From: Methanomicrobiales archaeon HGW-Methanomicrobiales-2
Lineage (GTDB): Archaea; Halobacteriota; Methanomicrobia; Methanomicrobiales; Methanoculleaceae
Assembly (NCBI GenBank): GCA_002839645.1
Contig: PGYL01000001.1
Location: 1 to 64,000 of the forward strand
Reading direction: 5' to 3'
DNA: 64,000 nt
The position numbers and the translations under genes are program-made. This document shows, in pieces, positions 1,881 to 53,744 of this stretch. Below the pieces are notes generated by a model. It searched no databases. It was not told where the DNA came from and worked only from the letters and a program-made list of their open reading frames with translations. Numbering within the stretch: position 1 is the stretch's first letter; every line of letters starts with the position of its first letter.

Positions 1881-2330
1881 TCACCTGAGCGGTCGCAGGT
1901 GGGCCTTCCCCTTCGCCTCCTCGAACCGGTTGCCGATACGCAGGAGGAGGGCATCGTCCATCTTCTGCCTGGCTTCCGGGAAGACCGTCTTCTCTTCCCG
2001 GTCGACATGGCCCCTCACCGCCTCCTGGAGTTTCGAGATCGCGTCGACCCAGTCCTCTTCGTCGGCCGTTGAGATGCTGTTTAACCGGTCGACGAGCGCC
2101 TGGATGATCTTATGCTCTTCCCGCGACCCTGCCGTGAGGTCATGCAGCCCCTGCTCTTCGAGCCGCGGATAGAAGACCCGTTCCTCGCCGGCCATGTGCG
2201 GCAGAAGGGTGTTCTTCATCTGGTTGAACAACTCTGCCCGGTCACGGATCTCCCTCTGCTGGAGTTCCCCCAGTTGCATCAGCATCTTCGCATGTTCCTG
2301 CCGTAAGAGATTGAGTATGTTCTGCCCCAT
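1881..2330 (-). CDS. Hemerythrin HHE domain protein 3
   Basis: A 149-residue HHE-family protein, the first gene of the hemerythrin trio and a close paralogue of HHE 2 over its whole length (same size; LxxQEHxxMLxQLxEL start; PHMxGEExxxYPRL centre; VxxEExxVFPE C-terminal motif). The frame stays open far upstream, but those residues look non-coding. ATG 2330 has a GGGGGGATAGAG leader and a TATA-like GTTTTTATC about 40 nt earlier. The di-iron ligands are present as in its neighbours. Confidence 0.9.
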   Translation of the reverse strand: MGQNILNLLRQEHAKMLMQLGELQQREIRDRAELFNQMKNTLLPHMAGEERVFYPRLEEQGLHDLTAGSREEHKIIQALVDRLNSISTADEEDWVDAISKLQEAVRGHVDREEKTVFPEARQKMDDALLLRIGNRFEEAKGKAHLRPLR

Positions 2331-2488
2331 CTCTATCCCCCCCGTATCGATGCCCCCGGAGTATGCATCTGATAAAAACGTATGGTGTGCCCGATATTCA
2401 GGATAGATTCTCTTCCGAATCCCGGGGAAAGCACCCGGAGGTCTCCGGAAACGTCCTCTCCGCGGTGCGGCAGAGCCTGCCGGATACC

Positions 2489-2497
2489 CATAAATGG
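2489..2497 (+). promoter_or_regulatory. TATA-like box for the permease gene
   Basis: CATAAATGG lies about 25-30 nt before ATG 2521, which would give a near-leaderless transcript. This argues against the upstream ATG at 2494, which falls inside the box. Confidence 0.4.
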
Positions 2498-2520
2498 TGC
2501 AGGCACATAGGGTTATACGT

Positions 2521-3834
2521 ATGCTGGAAAAGGAACCGGACGCCCCGAATCCCGGCACGAAACTCCGGCGCGAACTCGGGCTGCCTGCAGTCACTCTCTC
2601 GGGTGTGGGGATCATACTCGGGGCCGGGATCTACGCCCTGCTCGGGGAAGCGGCCGGGATGGCCGGCAACGCCGTCTGGCTGACGTTCGCCATCGCCGCC
2701 ACCATCGCCGCGTTCAGCGCCCTCGCCTATGCCGAGCTCTCGTCGATGTATCCCCGTGCAAGCGCTGAGTTCGAGTATGTCTCGAACGCCTTCGGGCGGA
2801 GGCTTGCGTTCGTCGTCGGGTGGCTGATCATCTTCTCCGGCATCCTCGGCGCCGCAACCGTCTCGCTCGGGTTTGCCGGGTACTTCTCGGATCTGGTCGG
2901 CTTTCCGGTCATCCCTTCAGCAATTCTGATCATCCTCGTCCTCGCCGGGATACTTCTCTACGGCATCAAGGAGACCGCCCGGGTCGCTATCGCCCTGACC
3001 CTCATCGAGGTTGGGGGCATCGTCATGGTCATCCTGATCGGCCTCCCGTATCTTGGGCAGGTGGATTACCTCGATATGCCGCAGGGAGTCCCGGGGCTCC
3101 TGCAGGCGTCCGCACTCGTCTTCTTCGCCTACATGGGGTTTGAGGAGATGGTAAAACTCTCCGAGGAGACGCGGAACCCGGAGCGAACCATCCCCCTCGC
3201 CCTGATTATCGCACTTGTCATCTCGGTCGTCCTCTATATCCTGGTATCTCTCGCCGCCGTCTCGGTCGTCGGCGCCGAGCAACTCGCCGCCTCCCGGGCA
3301 CCCTTCGCCGACGTCGCAGCTGTCGCCATCGGTCCCGCGGCGTTCACCATCATCTCCGTCATCGCCCTCTTTGCCACCGCAAACACCGCCCTCCTGATGA
3401 TGATGGCGTCGTCCCGGATCATCTACGGCATGGCCTCTTCCTTCTCGCTCCCTTCTTTCTTCGCCCGGGTGCATCCCCGGACACGAACGCCCTGGACGGC
3501 CATCGTCGCCGTTGCGCTCGCCTCCATGGTCTTCCTCTTTGCCGGCGAGATCGATTTCGTTGCGAACATCACGAACTTCACGCTCTTTGTGACATTCGTC
3601 TTCATCAACGCATCCGTGATCCTGCTCCGGTACCGTGCCCCGGATGTCGTCCGGCCCTTCCGGATACCGGGAACCATAGGGTCCCTCCCGATCATCCCGG
3701 TCGTCGGCATCATTTCAAGCCTCTTCCTCCTCGTCCAGTTAGACTCCCTGGTGCTGCTGGTCGGCGGAGCGCTGGTCGTTTTCGGTGCAGGGATTGCATT
3801 GCTCGGGGAGCAGGGGTCTGGCGGGGCGGCGTGA
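2521..3834 (+). CDS. APC-superfamily amino acid permease
   Basis: A 437-residue membrane transporter of the amino acid-polyamine-organocation superfamily, with about twelve hydrophobic helices. The N-terminal helix has the family signature GVGIILGAGIYALLG (broken first helix, substrate site), and the FAYMGFEEM helix 6 region with the following EETRNPERTIPLAL cytoplasmic loop is typical. It probably imports an amino acid by cation symport or exchange; the substrate cannot be read from sequence. The start at MLEKEPD is favoured over ATG 2494 by the TATA position. It is transcribed divergently from the hemerythrin genes. Confidence 0.88.
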   Translation: MLEKEPDAPNPGTKLRRELGLPAVTLSGVGIILGAGIYALLGEAAGMAGNAVWLTFAIAATIAAFSALAYAELSSMYPRASAEFEYVSNAFGRRLAFVVGWLIIFSGILGAATVSLGFAGYFSDLVGFPVIPSAILIILVLAGILLYGIKETARVAIALTLIEVGGIVMVILIGLPYLGQVDYLDMPQGVPGLLQASALVFFAYMGFEEMVKLSEETRNPERTIPLALIIALVISVVLYILVSLAAVSVVGAEQLAASRAPFADVAAVAIGPAAFTIISVIALFATANTALLMMMASSRIIYGMASSFSLPSFFARVHPRTRTPWTAIVAVALASMVFLFAGEIDFVANITNFTLFVTFVFINASVILLRYRAPDVVRPFRIPGTIGSLPIIPVVGIISSLFLLVQLDSLVLLVGGALVVFGAGIALLGEQGSGGAA

Positions 3835-3921
3835 CGGCAGAATAAATCGAGGGGTGGTGACGATCTATCCTGCCGGGCAGTTGATCGCCGGGATGTGGGG
3901 GCGGTGCCCCCGGACGACCGC

Positions 3922-5439
3922 CTAAACTCCCCTCTTCTCCGCCTGATAATGCTCGACCGGGCCGATCGCTTCCAGTTTCCCGTTTGAGAGGACGGAGATG
4001 GCGCCGTGGCCGCAGGCGACCAGGCACCGGCGGCCGGTCGGGGCAAGTTCCTCATCGAGGTCCCGGATCATCTCAAGCAACGCCTTCCTCTCCTGGCGTG
4101 CGCAGTCGCTGTCGACGTTGACCGACGTCACCAGGAAGTCGGCCAGCGAGTTGTAGTGTTTCCGGTCCTCATCGAGGCTCCCGAAATTGATCAGCGTGTC
4201 CGCGGTGAAGATGATCCCGTGCCCGGGACAGAAGAGGTAGACCTGACCGTGCATGTGCCCGCCCAGGGACTCAAGGACCTCGAACTCAAGGTCGTGGACC
4301 GTAAAGCGGGCAAGGATGGGGAAGATCGAGCGCGTGCCGATCTTCTCCTCCGGGAAGACTTCGAGGTTCTCCGGCGGGGTGAAGTGCGAGAAGAGGTTGA
4401 TGACGGTCGTGTAGACCTCTTCGAGGATCGAGGACTCGCTGCGCGACCCGTAGGCCCGGTTCGCCCGGCGGATGATCTCCCGCGACCCGGTGTGCGTATA
4501 CGATGTTGCGTCAAAGAGCCCGCCCGCCCCGCAGTGGTCCGCATCGGCATGGGTGATGTAGATCCTCTTGATCTTTTTGAGATCGCCAAGGCCGTAGTGC
4601 TGGAACATCCGCACGGCATCCTCGTGGTAGATCCCGTATCCGGTATCGATCATGACGGTCTCCTCCGGGGCGCGGAGCAGGAAGATGCTCCCGCCGCCAG
4701 GCGTCTGGAAGCAGAAGACCTCGACGTCGTCGCTGATCGGGATGCGCTGGACATCCGCGTAGAACCGGTCTCCGGTAGTGTTCTTGAGCGTCCTTCCCGT
4801 GAGGAGGATGCACTCGAAGACCTCCCTTGGGTCCTGACCGAGGCTGTTGAGTTCCTGGACGATGTGATTGACGTCCTGGAGGAGGGAGAGCAGGAACTCG
4901 TCCTCGGCCGTCCCGATCAGCCCCCGCACCGCCTGGGCGAACCTGACATAGAAGACGGTGTCGTCGAGGTTCTCGCCGGTCGTGTCGTACTCGAGGATAT
5001 CGAGGCGGTATTGTGATTTCAGCCTGTCGAGCAGGCTCTCCACGATCGCGGTCTCTTCGACGTTTAAACTGATGGTGACCCTGCCGGAGTCGCACCGCCG
5101 TTCGTCGAAATCGATGTAGGCGATGTTTGCCCCCGCCCCCGTGATGTAGGTGAGAAGTTCGAAGAGGGACCCGGGCTGATGCGGGACGTATACGGTGAAT
5201 CTCAGAAACCCGAGCGTGGGGAGCGATTCCTGGAGGTAGCCGATCGCATGGAGGTCTTCCTTTATCCGGCAGTACCCCTCCGGTGTGGCGGTCACCTCGA
5301 AGAAGACGGTGACGGGATCGATCCTGCGGTCGAACTGGATGCGGTTGATGTTGCCCGCATACGACTTGATGATCTCGGCCGCGCGGTGCAGCGCGCCCGG
5401 TTCGTCGGGCATTCTGGTGACGAAGGAGTATTTGTTCAC
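3922..5439 (-). CDS. Tandem ACT domain plus metallo-beta-lactamase fold protein
   Basis: A 505-residue fusion. Residues ~3-70 and ~77-150 are two ACT domains (first MPDEPGALHRAAEI, second HQPGSLFELLTYITG), small-molecule sensor modules usually specific for amino acids. Residues ~235-490 form a metallo-beta-lactamase fold with the THADADHCGAGG metal motif, a GGHMHGQVYLF segment, and a late CGHGA. The reaction is unknown; ACT modules suggest allosteric control by an amino acid. The GTG start at 5439 is chosen because AGGTGA lies just upstream and a TATA box (ATTTATATAAA, 5466-5456) ends ~17 nt before it. An ATG at 5487 would lie upstream of that promoter. Confidence 0.85.
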   Translation of the reverse strand: MNKYSFVTRMPDEPGALHRAAEIIKSYAGNINRIQFDRRIDPVTVFFEVTATPEGYCRIKEDLHAIGYLQESLPTLGFLRFTVYVPHQPGSLFELLTYITGAGANIAYIDFDERRCDSGRVTISLNVEETAIVESLLDRLKSQYRLDILEYDTTGENLDDTVFYVRFAQAVRGLIGTAEDEFLLSLLQDVNHIVQELNSLGQDPREVFECILLTGRTLKNTTGDRFYADVQRIPISDDVEVFCFQTPGGGSIFLLRAPEETVMIDTGYGIYHEDAVRMFQHYGLGDLKKIKRIYITHADADHCGAGGLFDATSYTHTGSREIIRRANRAYGSRSESSILEEVYTTVINLFSHFTPPENLEVFPEEKIGTRSIFPILARFTVHDLEFEVLESLGGHMHGQVYLFCPGHGIIFTADTLINFGSLDEDRKHYNSLADFLVTSVNVDSDCARQERKALLEMIRDLDEELAPTGRRCLVACGHGAISVLSNGKLEAIGPVEHYQAEKRGV

Positions 5440-5455
5440 CTGGTTCACCTGATGG

Positions 5456-5466
5456 TTTATATAAAT
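5456..5466 (-). promoter_or_regulatory. TATA box for the ACT/MBL gene
   Basis: ATTTATATAAA on the minus strand is a strong archaeal TATA match. Transcription would begin near 5435-5440, almost at the GTG start codon, implying a leaderless or near-leaderless mRNA. Confidence 0.6.
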
Positions 5467-5577
5467 GGGTGGTCGTCCTATAAGCACCTTTTCCAGGAGT
5501 TATAGGGTTGGAATGAGCAAATAGGGGGTTTAATGCATGACCTATGGTTTTGCTGCCGCGAGCGCGGCAGGGCCCGG

Positions 5578-6084
5578 CTACGCCGGGACGAGCCTCGAGC
5601 GCACCGTCTCCGCCCAGGCCCGGACAGCCTCCCAGTTGCGGAGGTCTCCCGTCTTTGCCCGGATGAGCTTGATGATTGTGCGGTCCGTGAAGGATAAGCG
5701 ACTGCTCTCCAGTTTTCCCGGGAAGATGCCGATATCTATGGGGTTCACGAGCATCCTGACCTGGTCCATCGATGCTTCCGCCTTCCTGAGTATCTCGGGC
5801 CCCCCGTCCGCGACCGTCAGCCCCACGGTAAAGTAGGCGACCGGGATGCTGCGCAGGTCCTGCTGGTTCTGCTCGATGAAGACCTGCGCTTCCGGGAGCC
5901 ATTTCCCCATGTAGATCGGGCTCCCGATGATGGCCGCCCGATACGGGGAGAGGTTCTGGACATCGCTCACCGGCAAAACATCGACGTCATCGCCTGCCTT
6001 TCGGAGTTCATCGCCGATCGCTTCCGCCACCTCTGCGGTCGAGCCGTAGCGGGTGGCATACGCAACGAGAATCTTATCTGCCAT
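5578..6084 (-). CDS. Flavodoxin-domain protein (HemG/flavodoxin-like)
   Basis: A 168-residue flavodoxin-fold protein. The N-terminus has the FMN phosphate-binding loop in an ATRYGSTAEVAEAIG context, followed by a second loop at IIGSPIYMGKW, typical of long-chain flavodoxins resembling protoporphyrinogen oxidase HemG (flavodoxin_5). It would carry electrons or act as a small flavin oxidoreductase in the cytosol; the partner is not evident. A perfect inverted repeat (CTGCCGCG/CGCGGCAG, 5553-5570) lies just past the stop. The TPR gene is divergent on the other side. Confidence 0.88.
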   Translation of the reverse strand: MADKILVAYATRYGSTAEVAEAIGDELRKAGDDVDVLPVSDVQNLSPYRAAIIGSPIYMGKWLPEAQVFIEQNQQDLRSIPVAYFTVGLTVADGGPEILRKAEASMDQVRMLVNPIDIGIFPGKLESSRLSFTDRTIIKLIRAKTGDLRNWEAVRAWAETVRSRLVPA

Positions 6085-6172
6085 AGTAGAGCTATCTCTC
6101 GTTCGACCGGTCTTAAACGTTCCCGGAGGATACGGGTTAGGTTCTTATGGGTTGGTCTCCCCCATAGGTCCG

Positions 6173-6814
6173 ATGGCGACTAGAGAAGAGGGTGCCGGAG
6201 CATGGTACCACAGAGGTCAGGCTCTCTGCAACACCAGAAACTACGACGAGGCAGCCGTCTGTTACGACAAAGCCCTTGAACTCTCCCCCGACGACCCTGT
6301 TCTATGGAGGCGGAAGGGGTTTGCGCTCCTCAAAGCCGGTCGCTATGACGAGGCGGTCGCCTGTTTCGACCGGGCGCTCGCTCTCGAGCCCGAAGATCCG
6401 ACGGCCTGGCAGAGAAAGGGATACGCTCTCGCCCACCTCGGCAGGAGCGAAGACGCCGTCGCCTGCTGTGAGAAGGCGCTCACGCTGGACCCGCAGCATA
6501 TCCTCGCCTGGCAGAGCAGGGGCTGGGTGCTCGGGGTCATGTGCAGGTATGATGAGGCGGCGGCCTGCTACGAGGCAGTACTCGCGATCGACCCGGACCG
6601 GGAGTCCGCGGCCTGGCACCGGGAGCGGATGCGGGAGAAGAAGGATCTCGCGGCGCTCGCAGCCGAGATCCGGGAGGCCGAGCGGTTCGTCGATGTGCCG
6701 GCCTGTATCCGGGAAGTGATCGCGGAGAGGGATTACGAGAATGCCGGGCTCGCGCGGTCGGTGCTCCGCGAACTGGTCGGGCGGGCGGAGACGTTGGCGG
6801 CCCCCCGTTCATGA
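6173..6814 (+). CDS. Tetratricopeptide repeat (TPR) protein
   Basis: A 213-residue soluble protein with four successive 34-residue TPRs in the first ~145 residues, each carrying a YDEAxxCxDxALxxxP-type helix (ACYDKAL, ACFDRAL, ACCEKAL, ACYEAVL). A charged C-terminal helical segment of ~60 residues follows. TPRs are protein-protein scaffolds; no partner is encoded alongside. The start at MATREEG is chosen because residues from the upstream in-frame ATG (6053) overlap the flavodoxin gene and have no TPR character. Confidence 0.85.
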   Translation: MATREEGAGAWYHRGQALCNTRNYDEAAVCYDKALELSPDDPVLWRRKGFALLKAGRYDEAVACFDRALALEPEDPTAWQRKGYALAHLGRSEDAVACCEKALTLDPQHILAWQSRGWVLGVMCRYDEAAACYEAVLAIDPDRESAAWHRERMREKKDLAALAAEIREAERFVDVPACIREVIAERDYENAGLARSVLRELVGRAETLAAPRS

Positions 6815-6835
6815 AAAAGAGGGAGCCCGTCCCTC
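6814..6835 (-). terminator. Hairpin plus T5 after gltX, between convergent genes
   Basis: GAGGGA/TCCCTC (6819-6824 with 6830-6835) forms a 6-bp stem with a 5-nt loop in the 28-bp gap between convergent TPR and gltX genes. On the minus strand it is followed directly by TTTTT. It would end the long leftward superoperon. Confidence 0.6.
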
Positions 6836-6842
6836 CGCTTCC

Positions 6843-8528
6843 TCACCGGTGCGCGAAGTACGCGCTCACCCGGCCGTTGTCCGCCGAGTCGATCCGCGCA
6901 AACCCGATCCGCTCGAACTGGACGACACGGTCCACCTCACCGGCGACCAGGGGTTCGCAGAACCCTTCGAGACTTCCGTCCTGCCGCAGAAGGGTGCAGG
7001 GGAGTTTCGCGTCCGCCGGCAGCCACTGGACGATCGGCGCCTTTTCGCGCCGGGCATCCTCGAGTGCGTCGCCCGCGTAGGATACGTGCGGTTCATCCCC
7101 ATCCCACGCGATCCTGATATTGTAGAGGTCTTTTAGGCGGATCATGCTCCGGCCCTCGATATCCGCTTTCGGGAGGAGCACCCTTCCGGCGGTGACGAGG
7201 GTGCGGACCCCCCGGGAGGGATCGTTCGGGTGCAGGGCCGCGTGGGCCTCGTGGAGAGGAGCGCCCTCAACGGTGACCTCCACCGGGTCGGGCACGAAGA
7301 AGTAGCGGTTCGCCTTCGGGTCGACGAGTTCCTTGTTCCGTGAGTAAAGGTTCTCCCACGAGAACGATATGTCGGTCTCCCCGGCGCCGATATCGATCAT
7401 GGCGTTCCTGACTGCCTCGGGCTCAATCCCCCGGCGTGCGATTGCCCGCATCGTCCCGAGGTGAATGTCGTCCCAGCCGGTGTAGGTGCCGTTGTTGATC
7501 CCCTCGCGCATCCCCGATGTCGAGAGGACGACGCCCGATATTCCCATCCGGCCGTAGTGGCGGTAGAACGGCGGCTTCCAGCCGAAGTAGTCGAAGATAT
7601 AGCGCTGTCTCCGCGTATTCGCGATATGGTCCTTCCCGCGGATCACGTGGGTGATCCCGAGCAGGTGATCGTCTACCGCGACCGAGAAGTTCATCAGCGG
7701 AAAGACCGTGTTGTCCACTCTCGGGTGGAGGGGCGCGTTCACGATCCGCATCGCGGAGTAGTCCCGCATCGCCGGGTCGGGGTGGGTGAGTTCCGTCTTC
7801 ACCCGGACGGTCACGTCCCCCTCGTAGAACTCTCCGTCAAGCATCTGCTGCCAGAGTTCGAGGTTCTCCTCGACCGGCCGCTCCCGGCAGGGGCAGGCCT
7901 TCCCCTTGAGTTTGAGTTCCCTGAAGCGCTCTGCATCACAGACACAGACGTAGGCGCCGCCGAGCTCGATGAGTTTCCTGCACCAGTCGTAGTAGATATC
8001 GAGCCTGTCGCTCTGGTAGACGATATCGGTGATCCCGAGCCCCAGCCACGCGATATCTTCCTGCACCATGGCATATGCCCCGGGATCGACCCTCCTTGGA
8101 TCGGTATCCTCGATACGGAGGACATACCGGCCCCCATACCGCCTGACATAGTAGTCGTTTAAGATGGAGGCCCGGGCATGCCCGAGGTGCAGCGGACCGC
8201 TGGGGTTGGGTGCAAACCGCATCACCACACCGTTCTCGGCGCCCTCGAGGGCAGGGAGTTCCCTTGTGTGCTCGTGCGTCTCGGTGAGTTCGTCGAGGAG
8301 TTCGGGGGCGATCTCCAAGAGACGGCTCTTCCGGTCGGCCTGGCTCATTGCCGCCACCTCCGCGATAGCCTTTCCCGCGAGCGCTCCTATCTCCCGGGCC
8401 CGGCTCCGGAACTCGGGATGCTTGCCGAGCACCGTGCCGATGACCGTCCCGCTTTTTGGGATCCCGTCGTGCTTCACCGCGTTCTGCAGGGCGTAGATGA
8501 AGAGCAGATGCTCGATATCAGTGTCCAT
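6843..8528 (-). CDS. gltX: Glutamyl-tRNA synthetase, archaeal type
   Basis: A 561-residue class I synthetase charging tRNA-Glu (and possibly tRNA-Gln, to be amidated afterwards, as in most archaea). An archaeal N-terminal extension of ~95 residues precedes the Rossmann domain, which opens with RFAPNPSGPLHLGHARAS; the HIGH-like HLGH is at ~114-117. A CxC...C element (CVCDAERF...ACPCRERP) lies in the inserted domain, and the KMSKS-equivalent loop reads VLSTSGMREGI, an unusual form. The C-terminal beta-barrel anticodon-binding part is present. It is the last gene of the superoperon, 4 bp after the prenyl synthase. Confidence 0.95.
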   Translation of the reverse strand: MDTDIEHLLFIYALQNAVKHDGIPKSGTVIGTVLGKHPEFRSRAREIGALAGKAIAEVAAMSQADRKSRLLEIAPELLDELTETHEHTRELPALEGAENGVVMRFAPNPSGPLHLGHARASILNDYYVRRYGGRYVLRIEDTDPRRVDPGAYAMVQEDIAWLGLGITDIVYQSDRLDIYYDWCRKLIELGGAYVCVCDAERFRELKLKGKACPCRERPVEENLELWQQMLDGEFYEGDVTVRVKTELTHPDPAMRDYSAMRIVNAPLHPRVDNTVFPLMNFSVAVDDHLLGITHVIRGKDHIANTRRQRYIFDYFGWKPPFYRHYGRMGISGVVLSTSGMREGINNGTYTGWDDIHLGTMRAIARRGIEPEAVRNAMIDIGAGETDISFSWENLYSRNKELVDPKANRYFFVPDPVEVTVEGAPLHEAHAALHPNDPSRGVRTLVTAGRVLLPKADIEGRSMIRLKDLYNIRIAWDGDEPHVSYAGDALEDARREKAPIVQWLPADAKLPCTLLRQDGSLEGFCEPLVAGEVDRVVQFERIGFARIDSADNGRVSAYFAHR

Positions 8529-8532
8529 GGTG

Positions 8533-9498
8533 TCAGTAACCCCGGTCTATGAAGTAATCGGCGATCTCGATAAGAAGGTGTTTCTCCTCTGAGTCCGGGA
8601 GGATCGAGAGTGCCTGTTTTGCGACGGTCGCCCGCTCGACGGCCGTGGCCCGAACCTCTGCGATGACGCCTGCATCCTCCAGCAGGGCGATCAGGTCATC
8701 GATCTCGGCAGCCGAGAGTACTCTCTGGTACGGGGCGAGATCGAGCCCCTTCTCGCGTGCCTTGATTGCTATCAGGGTCTGCTTCCCTTCCCGGATATCC
8801 GACGCGCGGTCCTTGCCGCTCTTCTCGGTGCTTGCAAAGAGGTCGATGAGGTCGTCCTGTATCTGGAAGGCAACGCCGCTGTTCACCCCGAACTGGTAGA
8901 GAGCATCGGCCTGAACCGGGTTTGCACCCGCAAGGATTCCGCCGATGGCGGCAGACGCGCCGTAGAGCACGCCGGTCTTCTTGCTGACCATCTCAAGGTA
9001 ATCGAGATCCGTGACGTCGTCTCTCGTCTCGAACGCCATATCCATGCTCTGCCCCTCGCAGATCTCGGTGCAGGTCCGGGCGAGCATCTTCACCGCCCGG
9101 ATTTTGGCGGGGTTTTCGGCCTCCGAGAGGCAGATGAACTCAAACGCCTTCGCGTAGAGCACATCCCCCGCAAGGATGGCCGTCGGTTCGTTCCAGACCT
9201 CGTGCACCGTCGGGACGCCGCGCCGCACAACGTCGCCGTCCATGATATCGTCATGGATGAGGGTGAAATTGTGGGTCAGTTCAAGCGCGAGCGCTGCAGG
9301 GATCAGGTCGTCCGAACTTCCTTTCTTTACTGCATCCGCAGCGAGTATGACGACTGCCGGGCGGAGCCGTTTGCCCCCTGCAAGCAGCAGGTGGGCGCTC
9401 GCCCGGAAGAGGTCGCCGTGGACATCTCCGAAGTAACGGTGGATCACCTTGTCGATCCGGTCAGCATTCTTCTCCAGGTAGTCTTCAAGCGTCGTCAT
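8533..9498 (-). CDS. idsA: Polyprenyl (geranylgeranyl) diphosphate synthase
   Basis: A 321-residue trans-prenyltransferase that condenses IPP with allylic diphosphates to make the C15/C20 chains for archaeal ether lipids. The first aspartate-rich motif is HDDIMDGD (FARM), and the second is FQIQDDLIDLF (SARM); GGKRLRP near residue 42 binds diphosphate. It lies downstream of the mevalonate-pathway genes mvk-ipk-fni, separated by RNase J, so substrate supply and use are encoded in one operon. AGGAG precedes the start. The chain length (C15, C20 or both) cannot be fixed from sequence alone. Confidence 0.95.
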   Translation of the reverse strand: MTTLEDYLEKNADRIDKVIHRYFGDVHGDLFRASAHLLLAGGKRLRPAVVILAADAVKKGSSDDLIPAALALELTHNFTLIHDDIMDGDVVRRGVPTVHEVWNEPTAILAGDVLYAKAFEFICLSEAENPAKIRAVKMLARTCTEICEGQSMDMAFETRDDVTDLDYLEMVSKKTGVLYGASAAIGGILAGANPVQADALYQFGVNSGVAFQIQDDLIDLFASTEKSGKDRASDIREGKQTLIAIKAREKGLDLAPYQRVLSAAEIDDLIALLEDAGVIAEVRATAVERATVAKQALSILPDSEEKHLLIEIADYFIDRGY

Positions 9499-9508
9499 GC
9501 ATTGTCTC

Positions 9509-10846
9509 CTACTTTATCAACAGTCTGCCCCCATTCCGGAGGATATGGAGGTCGTTGCCGAGGGTATACCCGATCTCCTCCGCGAACCTCGCGTAGCCGC
9601 CGGTCATGCCGATGTCGCCGTGGGACGGGACGATGTGCTGGGGATTTAAGAGATGCAGGAACTCGTAATGGTCCTCTTTGTAGGCGTGACCCGAGACGTG
9701 CAGCTCATCGAAGATCCGCACGCCCGCCATCTTGGCACGGGCCTCGACCAGGTAACGCTGCCCGTAGTTCATCGGGTTCGGGATCACCTTTGCCGAGAAG
9801 AGGATCTTGTCGCCCTTCTCCAGTTTGTAGGGAGTATCCCCCATCACGATCCTTGTCAGGATGGCGCCTGTCTCTCCCTGGTGGCCGGTGACGATCGGGA
9901 GGAACTTGTCCTTCCCGGTCTTCATGATCCGGCGAAGCGTCCGGTCCACGGTCCGGCGGTTGCCGAACATGGAGAGGGACTCGGGGAACGCGACCAGTTT
10001 CAACTGTTCGGCCGCCGAGCTGTAGCGCTCCATCGACCGCCCGAGCAGGACCGGTTTTCTGCCGATCTCGTGGGCACATTCGGCGATGGCCTTGACACGG
10101 GAGATATGCGACGAGAACGTCGAGACGAACAGGGCGCCCTTGTCGTCCTCGTAACTCGTGATGGTATCCCGTACGAGGTCCCGCGCGATCCTCTCGCTCG
10201 GGCACCGGCCGTTATCGGCGATGTTGACGCTCTCCGTGATGAGGGCGATCACGCCCTCCTTCCCTATCTGCCGCAGCCGGGCAAAGTCCGGCGGCTCGCC
10301 GAGCACCGGCGTTCTGTCCAGCTTGAAGTCGTTCGCGTAGACGACCGCTCCCCGCGGCGTGTGCAGCACCGGAAAGACGGTATCGATGATCGAGTGCTGG
10401 GCCCGCACGAACTCGAGCGTGAGGTGCGGAGAGATAGTGTAGCGCTGCCCTGCCTTCAGGACGAAGAGTTTATTGTTCACTCCGAACTTCTGTTCGCCTG
10501 CAATCTGCTGTCTGATCAGTTCCGAGGTATACGGCGTGCTGATGATGGGGGCGTTGTAGCGGTGCGCAAGTTTCGGTATTGCACCGATATGGTCCAGGTG
10601 CCCGTGCGAACAGACGATCGCCTTGACGCTCCCCTCTGCCGCATTCATGATGGTATCATCAGGAATGGCCTTCATCTGGATCAGGTCCAGGGAATGCATA
10701 TTCTCAATATCAGCATCCTCATGGATCATCACCTGGTCGAGGCGCAGCCCCATATCAAAGATGACAATCTCTTTTCCGCAGCGGACGGCGGTCATATTCC
10801 TGCCGACTTCGTTATATCCGCCCACTGCTATAATCTCAATATCCAT
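9509..10846 (-). CDS. rnj: Archaeal RNase J (beta-CASP metallo-beta-lactamase)
   Basis: A 445-residue ribonuclease J-type protein with the metal motif SHGHLDHIGAI, then a beta-CASP insertion and a late HVSGHAYKEDHYEFL/PSHGD metal and phosphate region. Euryarchaeal aRNase J is a 5'-3' exoribonuclease in RNA turnover. A strong AAGGAGAGG sits before ATG. Its position between fni and idsA is the usual euryarchaeal arrangement and explains why it is often found among isoprenoid genes. Confidence 0.93.
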   Translation of the reverse strand: MDIEIIAVGGYNEVGRNMTAVRCGKEIVIFDMGLRLDQVMIHEDADIENMHSLDLIQMKAIPDDTIMNAAEGSVKAIVCSHGHLDHIGAIPKLAHRYNAPIISTPYTSELIRQQIAGEQKFGVNNKLFVLKAGQRYTISPHLTLEFVRAQHSIIDTVFPVLHTPRGAVVYANDFKLDRTPVLGEPPDFARLRQIGKEGVIALITESVNIADNGRCPSERIARDLVRDTITSYEDDKGALFVSTFSSHISRVKAIAECAHEIGRKPVLLGRSMERYSSAAEQLKLVAFPESLSMFGNRRTVDRTLRRIMKTGKDKFLPIVTGHQGETGAILTRIVMGDTPYKLEKGDKILFSAKVIPNPMNYGQRYLVEARAKMAGVRIFDELHVSGHAYKEDHYEFLHLLNPQHIVPSHGDIGMTGGYARFAEEIGYTLGNDLHILRNGGRLLIK

Positions 10847-46393: not shown

Positions 46394-47101
46394 ATGATGT
46401 TCGGGCGCTACAAAGGCATTTTTCACCGTGAAGACGGGGATATTCTGGTCGAAACCGAACGGAATGGCGGCCTTCTGACCTACCGGCGGAGGTGTAAAGG
46501 GCAGACGTTCGAGCGGCTCCTGGTCTCGGAAACGGGCGAGATCGTCATCAATCCGGTGGAGCCGATCAGTCTCCCCAAAGAGATCACGAAATTCCTCCAG
46601 ATTGAGTTTACTCCGATGATTCTTGAGCCCGGTGCCAGCCAGACGGTCTACCTGAAGTTTCCGGTTGAGATCGGCGTCTTCCTGGAGGCGGCAAGAGACA
46701 TCGATGTGCTCGATGTCTTTGGCCTCGGCACCCAGAAGTACACGCTCTATGGATCGCCGACGGGCGGAGTCGTCGCCCGCTGGTACCGGAGCGCGGTCTA
46801 CACGGAGGCTCCCCCGGTCGAGTGTCTCTCTGAAGGAGTGATGGAACTCTCCATCCACAACGCATCCCACGAGTGGGTGGAGATCTCATGCGCTGTCTTT
46901 GACAGCACCGATATGAAGATCTACTACGGCGACTTTGTGGCGACCACTGCCACGATGAAGGTTATCAGTGTGACTCTGGCGGAGACGGACTTCATCGATG
47001 CGCCTCTCCGCCCCGGCATGGTAAAGTCCATCGAACTGCATGCGGCCCGCAAGATCCCGGTGATCAACCGCGGATACCTGATGGAGTGGGGGTTTTCATG
47101 A
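46394..47101 (+). CDS. DUF432-family protein
   Basis: A 235-residue protein of unknown biochemistry matching the archaeal DUF432 family: FGRYKGIFHREDGDILVETERNGG at the N-terminus and KYTLYGSPTGGVVARWYRSAVY in the middle. No membrane segment or catalytic motif is seen. It overlaps the mechanosensitive channel gene by 4 bp (ATGA). DUF432 genes next to MscS homologues suggest a role in osmotic response (inference). Confidence 0.85.
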   Translation: MMFGRYKGIFHREDGDILVETERNGGLLTYRRRCKGQTFERLLVSETGEIVINPVEPISLPKEITKFLQIEFTPMILEPGASQTVYLKFPVEIGVFLEAARDIDVLDVFGLGTQKYTLYGSPTGGVVARWYRSAVYTEAPPVECLSEGVMELSIHNASHEWVEISCAVFDSTDMKIYYGDFVATTATMKVISVTLAETDFIDAPLRPGMVKSIELHAARKIPVINRGYLMEWGFS

Positions 47102-47949
47102 GCTTCAACGCGACGGAGGTTTTCGAGATCCCCATCGGCATCGGCAATATCACTGTCGAAAACCTCCTGTATTTCACCGTCATCATCATCATCGGCCTTA
47201 CGGTCGCGAAGGTCGTCTCGACAAACGTCCGACGAGCCTTATCGGATCGGCTGCCCAAGAACGAGCGCGAGTTGCTCACGAAACTGGTCTACTACCTCAT
47301 CCTTGTCTGGGCGATCGTCATCGCTCTCCCGCAGCTCAAGTTCGACCTCTCCGGCCTCCTGGTGGCCGGAGGTATCGCCGGTCTCGTCATCGGTTTTGCC
47401 AGCCAGAGCGTCGTCTCAAACCTGGTCTCCGGCCTCTTCCTCATGTTCGAGCACCCGATCAAGATTGGCGACAACATCAATGTCGCGGATGTCAGCGGCA
47501 GCGTCGAGGACATCCGCGTCCTCTCGACCGTCGTCAAGATGTATGACGGGATCTATGTCAGGATCCCGAACGAAACGGTCTTCACCTCGAACATCACGAA
47601 CTACGTCCACAACGCCGCCCGGAGGTTCGAATACCAGATCGGCATCCGGTACCAGGACGATGCGAACGAGGCGATCCGGATCACCAAAGACGTCATCGAG
47701 ACCCACCCGTTCGCGCTGAAGAGCCCGGCACCGTCGGTCTTTGTCGATAATCTTGGCGATAACAGCGTCAACCGGACCGCCTATATCTGGGCGCCGGCCC
47801 GGAACTGGTGGGACGTCCGGACGGACCTCCTCTGGAGGATCAAGCAGGAACTTGAAGCGAACGGCATCGAGATCCCCTTCCCGCAGCGCACGGTCTGGTT
47901 TGCGGACGGACTCGAAGTGAAGAACCGGGCTGCTGAAAAGAAAGAGTAA
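47098..47949 (+). CDS. MscS-type small-conductance mechanosensitive channel
   Basis: A 283-residue channel with about three membrane helices in the first ~95 residues. The pore helix and adjacent motif read LVAGGIAGLVIGFASQSVVSNLVSGLFLMFEHPIKIGD, the classic MscS pore-lining helix with its GxAxxG-type spacing, and then the cytoplasmic beta domain (VSGSVEDIRVLSTVVKMYDGIYVRIPNETVF). ATG 47098 starts inside the DUF432 stop codon. Expected to release solutes during osmotic downshock. A T6 tract follows 6 nt after the stop. Confidence 0.95.
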   Translation: MSFNATEVFEIPIGIGNITVENLLYFTVIIIIGLTVAKVVSTNVRRALSDRLPKNERELLTKLVYYLILVWAIVIALPQLKFDLSGLLVAGGIAGLVIGFASQSVVSNLVSGLFLMFEHPIKIGDNINVADVSGSVEDIRVLSTVVKMYDGIYVRIPNETVFTSNITNYVHNAARRFEYQIGIRYQDDANEAIRITKDVIETHPFALKSPAPSVFVDNLGDNSVNRTAYIWAPARNWWDVRTDLLWRIKQELEANGIEIPFPQRTVWFADGLEVKNRAAEKKE

Positions 47950-48747: not shown

Positions 48748-49485
48748 TTATCCGATGATGTAGGTGATGGAGACGGTGGCGGTCACGTCGATCTCGCCGA
48801 CCTCGAGCGGGGTCGGGACAGCGCTGCCCGCTGCCTTCTCCATGCCCGAGTAGCGGCTGTCGTAGGCCATGGGCACGTAGTTGCCTCCTACGTTGACCTC
48901 TTTGACGTCGATGATGGTCTTGCCGATGGCTGCAGCAACCGCGTTTGCGTCGCCCCGCGCCTGCGCTACCGCGGCGGTCAGTGCGTCCGCTCTGAACTCC
49001 TGCTGCTTTGCGTCGCTCAAGGTGAACGAGAACCGATCGACCCGGTTTGCGCCGCTGGTGACGGCCAGGTCGACGATCTCGCCGGCGCGGTTAACGTCGC
49101 TTAACGTGACCTCGAGGCTGTTGATCACCCGGTAGTACTTCACCTTGGAGGTTGTCAGGGGCCTGTCGCTGCTCTCGGTCACCGGGATGATGTTGTAGCC
49201 GGTGGTCCGGATGTCTTTTGCCGGGATGCCGGCATTCTTTATGGCGTTGATCACGGCATCCATCTGCCGGGCGTTCTGCTGCTGCGCCGTCGCAACGTCG
49301 GCGTTCTCGGTCTCGACCGCGAACACGATGATCGCCTGGTCGGGTGTTGTCGTCACCTTGCCGGTACCGGAGACGTAGATCACTTTGTCTTTAGATTCCT
49401 CCGGCAACTGTGCGGTGACGTTTCCTATCACCGCGGCGCAGAGGACCATCAGAGCGATCCCCAGAAGTGCTGTCTTTCCTCGCAT
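48748..49485 (-). CDS. SIMPL-domain (DUF541) exported protein
   Basis: A 245-residue protein with an N-terminal hydrophobic signal (KTALLGIALMVLCAAVIGNVTA) and a SIMPL/DUF541 domain: VSGTGKVTTTPDQAIIVFAVETE, IRTTGYNIIPV, and YRVINSLEVTLSD. Family members are periplasmic or surface oligomers of unclear function. ATG 49485 is preferred over an in-frame TTG three codons upstream. A T5 run lies past the stop. Confidence 0.9.
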   Translation of the reverse strand: MRGKTALLGIALMVLCAAVIGNVTAQLPEESKDKVIYVSGTGKVTTTPDQAIIVFAVETENADVATAQQQNARQMDAVINAIKNAGIPAKDIRTTGYNIIPVTESSDRPLTTSKVKYYRVINSLEVTLSDVNRAGEIVDLAVTSGANRVDRFSFTLSDAKQQEFRADALTAAVAQARGDANAVAAAIGKTIIDVKEVNVGGNYVPMAYDSRYSGMEKAAGSAVPTPLEVGEIDVTATVSITYIIG

Positions 49486-49606
49486 AGGTATCAATCATCA
49501 CTTGATTTGGCGAAAATAAATATCTTGCTTTAGCTACGAGAATTTTCGTATCTTTAATTGGAGGAATCCCGAAAAAGGTTCTTTTACTCTCGCATTTCGG
49601 CTGGCG

Positions 49607-50287
49607 TCATTCGCGATCGGTCGCCGGCCGCCACCCGGCCGCCGCCACCAGACGGGCAATCAGGACGGCGATATAGATGGTCCCGCTCACGGTCTCGAGC
49701 ACGGCGAGCGACCGGGCCTGGTCGGTGATCGGCGTGATGTCGCCGTAGCCGAGCGTCGCGAGGGTGACGAAACTGTAGTAGATGGACGTCGGGAAGGTGA
49801 AGGCGCCGCCCCCCGGCCCGGCCGAAAACGATCCCGGACTGATGCTCTCGACGAGGCCGTAGGCGGTCGCCCAGGTGAGGCCCATGAGGAGATAGACGGA
49901 GACCGCCCCGTAGATGGTGTCGGTGGTGACCCTGCGTTCCCCGAGCACCCGGAAAAGGCCGAAGAGCGCGGTGAAGGCGTAGAAGAGGAGCGTGAAGACG
50001 CTCTCGGCGGTGCCGATTACGGGATTCCCGGTGACGACGTGGAGCCAGCCGAGGCCGAAGGCGGGAACCGCGAGGAGAGCGGCGATGACGACCTGCCGTC
50101 GCCGGTTGCTCACGGCGTAGACCCCGGTGATCAGGATGAAGGACGAGAGCACCTTCAGGGCGACCGTGCCGGTCGGCCCTGCACCTGCGTAGGGGTAGAC
50201 CGCGAGCAGAAGGATGAGCGATGCGAGCAGGTAGTGGAACTGCATTTCCCTCGCGCGGGCAAGATACCGGGCGAGAGGGTTCCTCAC
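49607..50287 (-). CDS. Potassium channel with selectivity filter TLGYGD
   Basis: A 226-residue membrane protein with several N-terminal helices and a C-terminal two-helix pore. The pore loop SIYYSFVTLATLGYGDITPITD carries the K+ selectivity signature T-x-G-Y-G-D. There is no cytoplasmic RCK or CNBD regulatory domain. The start is GTG 50287, overlapping the kinase stop by 4 bp (GTGA), so the channel is co-translated with the upstream kinase and may be its regulatory target (inference). Confidence 0.9.
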   Translation of the reverse strand: MRNPLARYLARAREMQFHYLLASLILLLAVYPYAGAGPTGTVALKVLSSFILITGVYAVSNRRRQVVIAALLAVPAFGLGWLHVVTGNPVIGTAESVFTLLFYAFTALFGLFRVLGERRVTTDTIYGAVSVYLLMGLTWATAYGLVESISPGSFSAGPGGGAFTFPTSIYYSFVTLATLGYGDITPITDQARSLAVLETVSGTIYIAVLIARLVAAAGWRPATDRE

Positions 50288-51660
50288 GCTCTCTCCTCCC
50301 CTGCGGGTCCGGTCGGCGTCGTGTCGCCTGCTTCCCTCATCAGGGTCTCGATGGCATCGAGCACCTCCCCGGCAGATTGGTAACGGTCAGCAGGGTCCTT
50401 TGCGAGGCACCGGAGGATAATCGGGTCGAGTCTTTTGAGGTCCGGATCGATCCGTGAGGGGGCGACCGGCTGCTCCCGGAGGGTTGCCCCGGCAAGCCCG
50501 ACGAGGTTCTCGCCGGCATGGGGGGTCTTCCCCGTCACCAGTTCGTAGAAGACGACGCCGAGCTGGTAGATGTCGGTCCGTGCATCGGTCCTGCCGAACC
50601 GTTCCGGGGCGATCTGCTCCGGGGCCGCATACGCGAGGGTGAACCCGGCGATGCTGGTGTCCCGGCTCGCTGCCAGCGTCGTGCTCATGCCCCAGTCGGT
50701 GATCTTTGGCGTCAGGTCGTCCGCGAGAAGGATGTTCCTCGGCTTGATATCCCGGTGGACGACGCCTCGCTCATGGGCGTAGGCCAGGCCGGCGGCGATG
50801 CCTGCAGCGATACGGGCGGCGGTCTTGACCGGGGCGGGTTTTGCAATCTCCTCGAGCGTCCGGGGCAGGAACTCCATTTCGACGAAGGGTACCGGGAGGA
50901 TGTTGACCGAGTAGACCGCCACGATGTTTTTGTGCGTGAGGTCTTCCCAGAACCGCATCTCTTTCATGAAGGTTTTTCCGGTCGCTTCATCGTAGGTGAC
51001 CGGGATCTTCACCGCTACGGTCTGACGGTCATCACGCCTGACCGCCGAAAAGACCTGTCCGAGCCCGCCTCTCCCGACGAAGGCGACCTGGCCGTACCGC
51101 CCTGCAAGTTCGGGCGGGAACCCGGCCGGGTGGGAGAGCGTGGTCCGGTATGCGCCGGGGAGGATGGTCGTGCCCGCCGGTGCTTCGCCGGCATCTGCTC
51201 GTTGCGACTTCTTCAGGTGCCCGGCACCGAGCACGGAGGCACCGCCGAGCAGGATGAGGGCCAGAGCAACCCCGGCCCAGGGGAACGGGTCGGTGATCGT
51301 CTGGCTGTTTTCCCGGGGTGTTGTTGTGGCTGTCGCGGTTGCCGTCACCTCCGGCGTCGCCTCTGTCTGCTGTTCTCCCGGGGTGACGGTCTCTTCGGGC
51401 GAGGGCAGGGCGGTCGGCGTCGCTTTCGGCGTATCCCTGGCCTTGCCGTTGTCCTTGTCCTTGTTCCGGCCGGGAGCGTCTCCGCTCTTTCCGGGGGCGG
51501 TAACCGTATCCTCGCCCGGTGTCTTGCCGGCAGCCTCGATAGCGGCAGCGTCGGTGCCGGAGAGCTCCGGCGGCCCCGTTGCTCCCGAGACGCCGGGAGA
51601 GATGACGAGGAGGAGCAGGCCGGCGGCGAGGAGCAGGACGGCCGCCCGTTCAGGCCGCAT
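50284..51660 (-). CDS. Transmembrane Ser/Thr protein kinase
   Basis: A 458-residue kinase. N-terminal signal-like helix (AAVLLLAAGLLLLVISPGVSGA, ~6-27), a ~95-residue Pro/Thr/Glu/Lys-rich external segment, a membrane helix (WAGVALALILLGGASVLGAG, ~128-148), then the kinase domain. Kinase motifs: GRGGLGQVFSAV (glycine loop), VAVKIP (Lys), VVHRDIKPRNILL (HRDxKxxN), TDWG in place of DFG, and AYAAPEQIAPE. Unlike bacterial PknB, the kinase is C-terminal. Start ATG 51660 overlaps the FHA gene by 11 bp, and its stop overlaps the channel start. Suggested targets are the FHA protein and the channel. Confidence 0.9.
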   Translation of the reverse strand: MRPERAAVLLLAAGLLLLVISPGVSGATGPPELSGTDAAAIEAAGKTPGEDTVTAPGKSGDAPGRNKDKDNGKARDTPKATPTALPSPEETVTPGEQQTEATPEVTATATATTTPRENSQTITDPFPWAGVALALILLGGASVLGAGHLKKSQRADAGEAPAGTTILPGAYRTTLSHPAGFPPELAGRYGQVAFVGRGGLGQVFSAVRRDDRQTVAVKIPVTYDEATGKTFMKEMRFWEDLTHKNIVAVYSVNILPVPFVEMEFLPRTLEEIAKPAPVKTAARIAAGIAAGLAYAHERGVVHRDIKPRNILLADDLTPKITDWGMSTTLAASRDTSIAGFTLAYAAPEQIAPERFGRTDARTDIYQLGVVFYELVTGKTPHAGENLVGLAGATLREQPVAPSRIDPDLKRLDPIILRCLAKDPADRYQSAGEVLDAIETLMREAGDTTPTGPAGEERA

Positions 51661-52450
51661 CCGGCGCCGGCACCCCCCCGGAGACGGCGAAGACGAGGGT
51701 TGCCCCCGGCGCGCCCTTTGCGAGTTCGACGAGGTCGCCGTCGTGGAGCTCCCGCCGCGTGCCCCGGTCGAGCGGCGTACCGTTCACGAAAGTGCCGCCC
51801 GTGCTGCCGCAGTCCTCGATGAGCCAGGCGCCGTCCCGGTGGCGGGTGAGCCGGGCGTGCGGTCTCGAGACGCGGGTGACCGCCGCGTACTCTTCGCCGA
51901 GAACGATATCCTGCCCGGCTTGGCGGGGTGCGTCCGGGTCCGCCCGGCCTATGGCGATGCTGTCGTGCCCGAGCGGGAAGACCCTGCCGTCCTCTGACCC
52001 GCCGAGGAGGATGACGACCGGGAACTGCCCGGAAAACTCTCCCGAGAACGTCTCCCGGACACCGGCAAGTCTCTTCGCGAGCACAGCATCCGTGAGCGTC
52101 AGTTTCAGGTTCGAGAAGAGCCCGAGGCTTCTCGTGATCGCCTCGAGTCCCCCGGGCACGAGCGAGTATTTCCAGACCGGGTGAATTCCTTTTGCGGTCG
52201 GGCGGGAGAGACCGGCCTCTTTCTTGACGACGCCTATGCTCAGCAGTTTGTCGAGATGCTTCTTTGTGTTCTCGTAGCTCGTCTCGATCGCGGCCGAGAT
52301 CTGCCGGACATCCTTTGGACTGCGTTCGATGACCTTTAAGATCTTCAAGCGCGTGCTGCTGCTCAGCACGTCCAGGTATTCGGAGAGTTCCTGCAGATCG
52401 TCGGTGTCTATATCGAGGATCAGTGTCCTTGAGTCGTCGTCGTTGGTCAT
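51650..52450 (-). CDS. Winged-helix regulator with FHA domain
   Basis: A 266-residue fusion. Residues ~18-110 are an ArsR/HxlR-like winged helix (LDVLSSSTRLKILKVIERSPKDVRQISAAIETSYENTKKHLDKLLSIGVV). Residues ~160-255 are an FHA domain with IAIGRADPD (GR), VSRPHARL (SxxH), and GSTGGTFVNGTPL (NG) signatures for phosphothreonine binding. It likely binds its own DNA target and is controlled by phosphorylated partners from the adjacent kinase. Start ATG 52450 follows GGAGG. It is the first gene of the three-gene operon. Confidence 0.92.
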   Translation of the reverse strand: MTNDDDSRTLILDIDTDDLQELSEYLDVLSSSTRLKILKVIERSPKDVRQISAAIETSYENTKKHLDKLLSIGVVKKEAGLSRPTAKGIHPVWKYSLVPGGLEAITRSLGLFSNLKLTLTDAVLAKRLAGVRETFSGEFSGQFPVVILLGGSEDGRVFPLGHDSIAIGRADPDAPRQAGQDIVLGEEYAAVTRVSRPHARLTRHRDGAWLIEDCGSTGGTFVNGTPLDRGTRRELHDGDLVELAKGAPGATLVFAVSGGVPAPDAA

Positions 52451-52654
52451 AGGTCCTCCGGTCGGCCTTGCTGTATGTTTTCACGAGGTCTCTGATGAAG
52501 GTTGTGCACTTCACCGGGCGATCCTGCATCCCGGCAGGGGCATACCGACCATAATCCCCGGGCTCCCACGTGGCGACGGCGCCGCAGAATGCGTGGTTCG
52601 TCTCCGGATCCGGCTCCGGATCATCTTTTATACGAGGGGATCGATCGAGGTGGC

Positions 52655-52939
52655 ATGCTTGAGGATATCGAGACCCTGCAACAGCGGGCCGTGATGGTGG
52701 AGATCGAGGAGATGATCCAGTCGACACCCAATTATGCCGATATCAGGACAGCACTCCAGTCGTTAAATTTCATACCGGAGCAGGACGACGCCGATGTCGC
52801 GATCTGGGTGCATCCCGCTCTCCGGATCTTCGTCCTCTTACAGATGAACCTCGGCGGCGGGTATGCAGGGTACAAGGTGGCCGCCTACGACGATCTGGAA
52901 GGCCGCGAGGGGATGTCTGCCGGCTACAACGCCCGGTGA
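52655..52939 (+). CDS. Small conserved protein, paralogue 1
   Basis: A 94-residue protein of unknown function: an N-terminal helix (MLEDIETLQQRAVMVEIEEMI), a YADIRTALQSLNF helix, then beta strands (DADVAIWVHPALRIFVLLQMN) and a final KVAAYDDLEG. No signal or membrane segment. A TATA-like CTTTTATAC and GAGGTG sit upstream of ATG. A recognisable paralogue lies at 53460 on the other side of a repeat copy. Confidence 0.75.
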   Translation: MLEDIETLQQRAVMVEIEEMIQSTPNYADIRTALQSLNFIPEQDDADVAIWVHPALRIFVLLQMNLGGGYAGYKVAAYDDLEGREGMSAGYNAR

Positions 52940-53459: not shown

Positions 53460-53744
53460 ATGCAGTATGACCCTCGCATGCGTGAACAACTGCAGGTTGA
53501 TCGGGAGGAGCAGGAGGCCATGAAAGGCCGGGTCCGGGAGATGATCGCGGCAAACACCACGTACGATGGGATCCGGGAGGGCCTTGAGGGTCTCGGGTTC
53601 CGGGCGAAGGAGGACCGGCCCGCCCTTGCCCTCTGGGAGAACTCCGAGCACGAACTTTTCGTGATGGTCCATATGGACCCGGAGACCGGCGGGTTGCGCG
53701 ATTACGATGTGAAGACGTTTGAGGAGACGGAGGGGTTCGAGTAG
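53460..53744 (+). CDS. Small conserved protein, paralogue 2
   Basis: A 94-residue protein resembling the paralogue at 52655: shared helix MI...Y..IREGLEGLGFRAKED versus MI...YADIRTALQSLNFIPEQD, then a strand ALALWENSEHELFVMVHMD and final VKTFEETEG. The identity is modest but runs the whole length. Start uncertain: ATG 53460, 53478 (preferred by the TATA distance) or 53520 (good GGAGG). No function known. Confidence 0.7.
   Translation: MQYDPRMREQLQVDREEQEAMKGRVREMIAANTTYDGIREGLEGLGFRAKEDRPALALWENSEHELFVMVHMDPETGGLRDYDVKTFEETEGFE

Follow-up and report, generated by a model that had tools for sequence, protein, structure and literature searches.

A receptor Ser/Thr kinase and a transcription regulator that carries both a winged helix (wHTH) and an FHA domain probably form a dedicated two-protein phospho-signalling module in Methanomicrobiales, in which a threonine in the N-terminal tail of the regulator, Thr9, would act as the switch; from sequence comparisons, we place the probability of this reading at roughly 0.6. 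The conserved unit consists of two genes, regulator and kinase, and not of the trio with a K+ channel that the earlier note on this DNA had described.

Organization of the locus and its two core proteins

In the window, the whole stretch of 64,000 nucleotides analysed here from a methanogen with a 2.8 Mb genome, three genuine open reading frames lie on the minus strand at 51650-52450 (266 aa), 50284-51660 (458 aa) and 49607-50287 (226 aa), and the overlaps reported for them, 11 bp between regulator and kinase and 4 bp between kinase and channel, are exact. The arrangement is not attributable to chance, since some 20 Methanoculleus genomes have the orthologues in identical order. Two small plus-strand ORFs of 94 aa each (52655-52939 and 53460-53744), 29% identical to one another, lie in divergent orientation to the regulator and show synteny across most Methanoculleus; a Pfam scan of the second returned no match.

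The regulator (51650..52450, minus strand), defined by its domains and belonging to a family found order-wide, combines an ArsR-type winged helix at aa 31-77 (52220..52360; Pfam HTH_5, 8.5e-07) with an FHA domain at aa 167-243 (51722..51952; PF00498, 5.8e-16), the fusion that the earlier note had proposed. The helices and wing of the former are visible in the structure model, which matches PDB entries 2p4w and 4ggg, while Foldseek aligns the FHA domain with GarA, Rad53, EmbR and DgcB. Its predicted pThr-binding residues are R169, S195, H198 and N223; the arginine is kept in 118/118 copies, the asparagine in 117/118, and Ser or Thr occupies position 195 in 116/118. The Pfam match, these conserved Arg/Ser/Asn contacts and the Foldseek matches together place it among FHA domains.

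The kinase (50284..51660, minus strand) was delineated by Pfam, hydropathy and an alignment of 106 orthologues. A signal peptide or first hydrophobic segment at aa 6-24 (51589..51645) and a Pro/Thr-rich extracytoplasmic stalk at aa 25-128 (51277..51588) precede a transmembrane helix at aa 129-147 (51220..51276), the helix and the first segment being assigned by hydropathy, and the catalytic domain occupies aa 192-428 (50377..51087; PF00069, 1e-39; PknB-like, 1.4e-36). Its motifs are complete (VAVK218, HRD304xKPxN, D322WG and APE) and their columns near-invariant among the 106 orthologues, making it a Hanks-type Ser/Thr kinase with DWG in place of DFG. In receptors of the PknB type, the kinase domain is N-terminal and a PASTA ectodomain C-terminal; here, PASTA is absent, the ectodomain is N-terminal and the kinase C-terminal, so the opposite topology claimed earlier is confirmed. 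Relatives of the kinase have other ectodomains: outside Methanoculleus, 31/69 copies carry NosD/beta-helix and 14/69 PEGA domains, and others have short or multi-TM N-termini. Judged from their sequences, the ectodomains are modular and interchangeable, namely NosD/beta-helix, PEGA or a Pro/Thr-rich stalk. The genome encodes three other PknB-like kinases (1890-8637 of locus L007, on contig C56 of genome G000), two of which carry TPR repeats at the N-terminus and the third a TM segment; these were rejected as members of the system because they form a separate cluster with no FHA nearby.

Pairing of regulator and kinase across Methanomicrobiales

Each of the three proteins was searched against 60 relatives, and the surroundings of the loci were fetched, together with 80 named loci; some genomes had been counted twice under different locus identifiers, and removal of the duplicates left 106 distinct pairs. 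Among the 128 evaluable regulator copies in Methanomicrobiales, that is, those with enough downstream sequence, 125 are immediately followed on the same strand by the kinase gene, recognized by a C-terminal catalytic domain. In the first of the three exceptions (L150, 4902-8107), the kinase gene adjoins the regulator in convergent orientation, a natural break of the operon; in the second (L135), the contig stops within a downstream gene having a PEGA domain; in the third (L168), a PP2C phosphatase gene comes directly after the regulator. In the latter stretch (5001-10771, Methanospirillaceae), the PP2C gene is followed by another FHA regulator, a divergent one with 27% identity, and then by a secreted or membrane protein of which the fetched sequence covers just the first part. 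PP2C also immediately precedes the regulator in four copies of family f2 (L047, L048, L052 and L054) and immediately follows the kinase in one further locus (L148); elsewhere, including this genome, it is unlinked.

The association is also exclusive. In a phylum-wide sample of 393 genomes, the regulator was found in 65, all within the single order Methanomicrobiales, one family of which (f6) yielded none in the same sample. In 61 genomes, every FHA match coincides with a copy of the wHTH-FHA regulator, which is the sole FHA protein of the present genome, and those of the 61 that do not have the regulator also do not have its kinase type, holding at most other PknB-like kinases. Up to four paralogous regulator/kinase pairs occur per genome, resembling a family of receptors.

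Regulator and kinase-domain distances are correlated in a mirror-tree comparison of 87 pairs (r=0.90; 500 shuffles of the labels gave no value above 0.14). Paralogues provide the better test, because r=0.90 includes species relatedness: the closest regulator and the closest kinase belong to the same copy in 137/168 cases, with 76.8 expected. These comparisons indicate that the two proteins co-evolve and that paralogues keep their partners. Order-wide linkage, exclusive FHA occurrence and co-evolution accordingly favour the idea of a DNA-binding regulator that reads phosphorylation and is dedicated to the membrane kinase next to it.

Upstream of the regulator, the strongest footprint in Methanoculleus is a block, GCACAACCTTCATCAG-N4-CTCGTGAAA (52479..52507, minus strand), that contains an imperfect palindrome and is a candidate operator located about 30 bp before the regulator start. 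Its CTTCATCA core occurs in 24/25 Methanoculleus upstream regions, 77 to 85 bases upstream of where the Thr9 codon ends, and a genome-wide search for further copies of the element with up to 3 mismatches, intended to reveal a regulon, matched the operon's own promoter alone. Autoregulation of the operon through this element is plausible. A conserved element suggestive of autoregulation would also suit a different account, in which a global Hanks kinase acts mostly on other targets, the regulator is a constitutive autoregulator and their linkage reflects co-transcription only; other PknB-like kinases are indeed pleiotropic. This account is highly improbable in view of the strict 1:1 pairing in several families, the paralogue-specific co-evolution and the absence of any other FHA protein from these genomes, all of which favour the dedicated module.

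The K+ channel as an accessory gene

The third gene of the operon (49607..50287, minus strand) encodes a predicted 6-TM K+ channel of 226 aa, identified by Pfam, selectivity filter and TM count. Ion_trans_2 (PF07885) covers residues 133-215 (9.6e-14), KcsA matches at 156-214, and the filter TLGYGD (aa 178-183; 49739..49756, minus strand), invariant in 14 orthologues, provides the TxGYGD signature within a two-TM pore module that is expected of a K+ channel. The chain ends about 10 residues past the last TM, and no regulatory domain is present; the filter and this short C-terminus agree with the earlier description of a K+ channel without a regulatory domain of its own. The helices of the predicted structure fit six TM segments and a pore helix; since the mean pLDDT is 52, the model was not taken as evidence.

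The earlier note had regarded the trio as one functional unit, in which the channel would be essential and a direct kinase substrate, so that a cue would be coupled to both K+ flux and transcription. Consistent with this are the 4-bp overlap and gene order, which are retained in the roughly 20 Methanoculleus genomes and in FWC-SCC1 (L105), where the channel lies inside the operon, as well as the absence of a regulatory domain in the channel. Nevertheless, all other sampled families, and no fewer than five genomes of the Methanoculleus group, have the pair but no channel gene in the operon with it; at L086-L090, the channel is missing from the operon with the flanking SIMPL, metallo-beta-lactamase, MscS and DUF432 genes in place. 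Its absences are scattered over several places on the regulator-kinase tree, implying several independent losses or gains, and its short cytoplasmic C-tail varies in sequence and lacks a conserved Thr motif. This distribution rules out the trio as a conserved unit and makes the trio unlikely as a functional one: examination of the neighbourhoods upheld the link between regulator and kinase, while that to the channel is lost outside the Methanoculleus group. The channel is an accessory, genus-level elaboration, a local addition in Methanoculleus and near relatives, to the two-gene module. Two neighbours of the operon persist even where the channel is absent, a SIMPL-domain gene (48748-49494, minus strand) and a DUF432 gene overlapping an MscS-type channel gene (46394-47949, plus strand).

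Thr9 and the juxtamembrane motif

Residues 1-13 of the regulator are variable and disordered in the model (pLDDT about 35, below 50), yet Thr9, within S-R-T-L-I-L (codon at 52424..52426, minus strand), is Thr in 116/116 aligned copies, never Ser, with all four Thr codons in use. It remains Thr in 32/32 representatives after clustering at 70% identity, while the top residue of the other tail columns averages 0.29. Aliphatic residues follow, and the +3 position, typically the one read by FHA domains, whose known ligands have L, V or I there, is L, V or I in 97/116 copies. Thr9 is therefore a predicted phospho-site and FHA ligand, and its invariance combined with the aliphatic +3 gives the regulator a tail-switch signature like that of GarA/OdhI at the sequence level. 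Thr9 could alternatively have a structural role.

A second candidate ligand is found in the kinase. The juxtamembrane segment, whose limits were set by a hydropathy threshold, is otherwise poorly conserved, and contains a T-phi-phi motif in 23/24 Methanoculleus-like and 43/79 other copies; here it corresponds to Thr165 (T-T-I-L; 51166..51168, minus strand; Thr in 79/106 aligned copies), a candidate site for autophosphorylation and FHA docking. Outside Methanoculleus, after copies sharing 6-mers were purged, the motif is present in 30/56, where 300 shuffles predict 7.0 and reach 14 at most, an excess that may in part reflect common descent and not independent origin, as the purged set is still related. 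Control motifs with Ser, Asn, Ala or the reversed order showed no excess over shuffles in this segment. The motif could also be conserved for some other reason, and, since roughly every second copy outside Methanoculleus lacks it, the FHA domain could instead dock on the activation loop.

An FHA domain and a juxtamembrane T-phi-phi would suffice for docking, and hence for simple sequestration, in which the FHA domain keeps the regulator at the membrane on the phosphorylated kinase and Thr9 is no phospho-acceptor. We consider this rather doubtful, because it leaves unexplained an invariant Thr, never Ser, in a variable and disordered tail, a feature for which the module with a Thr9 switch would account.

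Comparison with known systems

The literature search found no description of an archaeal pair of this kind, which is weak evidence given that subscription papers lie mostly outside its coverage. The statement that no such system has been described needs correction with respect to bacteria, where PknH/EmbR likewise joins a membrane Ser/Thr kinase to a winged-helix/FHA transcription factor. The kinase domain of PknH is N-terminal, whereas that of the present kinase is C-terminal. EmbR, whose structure 2ff4 is among the fold matches of the regulator, has an OmpR/SARP wHTH with BTAD; the present wHTH is ArsR-like and a Pfam scan of the regulator contained no BTAD, which sets it outside the EmbR (SARP) family. 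In M. tuberculosis, the C-terminal FHA domain of EmbR mediates phosphorylation by PknH, and that source mentions no invariant Thr in the N-tail of EmbR (PMC4601284).

The proposed switch has parallels elsewhere. In OdhI/GarA, the FHA domain docks on a disordered kinase segment that is phosphorylated, after which the N-tail Thr is modified (PMC8546545); in these actinobacterial proteins, which act with PknB/PknG and whose structures 2kfu and 2kb3 are among the regulator matches, the FHA domain binds the phosphorylated Thr of its own N-tail, as proposed here. GarA/OdhI, however, bind metabolic enzymes and not DNA, and their kinases are no dedicated partners bearing swappable ectodomains. Similarly, the FHA domain of DgcB from Bdellovibrio (6hc0/6hc1, also among the matches) binds its own phosphorylated N-terminal tail with +3 as determinant (PMC6733907), its effector being a GGDEF cyclase rather than a DNA-binding domain. 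Among archaea, ArnA/ArnB with ArnC/ArnD of Sulfolobales represent transcription control by an FHA protein under Ser/Thr kinases (PMC10470591, PMC13286277). ArnA, like the present regulator, is an archaeal FHA protein for transcription control, but it belongs to a different phylum and has a Zn-ribbon and a vWA partner in place of a wHTH and a kinase, so the regulator is not a member of its family. Nor is the pair a two-component system, as a Pfam scan revealed no HisKA, HATPase or REC in regulator or kinase. The module is set apart from every known family by some defining feature; in function it appears, by analogy, to be comparable with PknH/EmbR as well as with two-component systems.

Proposed mechanism

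From domains, linkage, exclusivity, co-evolution, Thr9 invariance and T-phi-phi enrichment, all read from sequence, we infer phosphorylation, docking, switching, targets and a signal. The ectodomain would perceive a cue, perhaps, as a guess from the MscS and SIMPL genes nearby, one of envelope or turgor, and the kinase would autophosphorylate, including on the juxtamembrane T-phi-phi threonine. The FHA domain of the regulator would then dock on this pThr, allowing the kinase to phosphorylate Thr9 in the regulator N-tail. Binding of pThr9 by an FHA domain, either of the same chain or of a partner subunit, would release the regulator from the kinase and alter the way in which it binds DNA, perhaps at its own promoter, and PP2C would reset the regulator. 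In Methanoculleus, the co-translated K+ channel would be an accessory output.

Implications

There is about an even chance that the module is a clade-specific counterpart of two-component systems, comprising kinases with exchangeable ectodomains, private FHA-wHTH factors, a pThr tail switch and sometimes a private PP2C. The finding points to an order-wide euryarchaeal writer-reader module, sometimes with an eraser, for which a phospho-site is predicted and the partners are known, so that two proteins and some point mutants are enough to test a complete archaeal kinase-to-gene pathway. Such a module would be a case in which two-component logic evolved convergently on eukaryote-like kinases.
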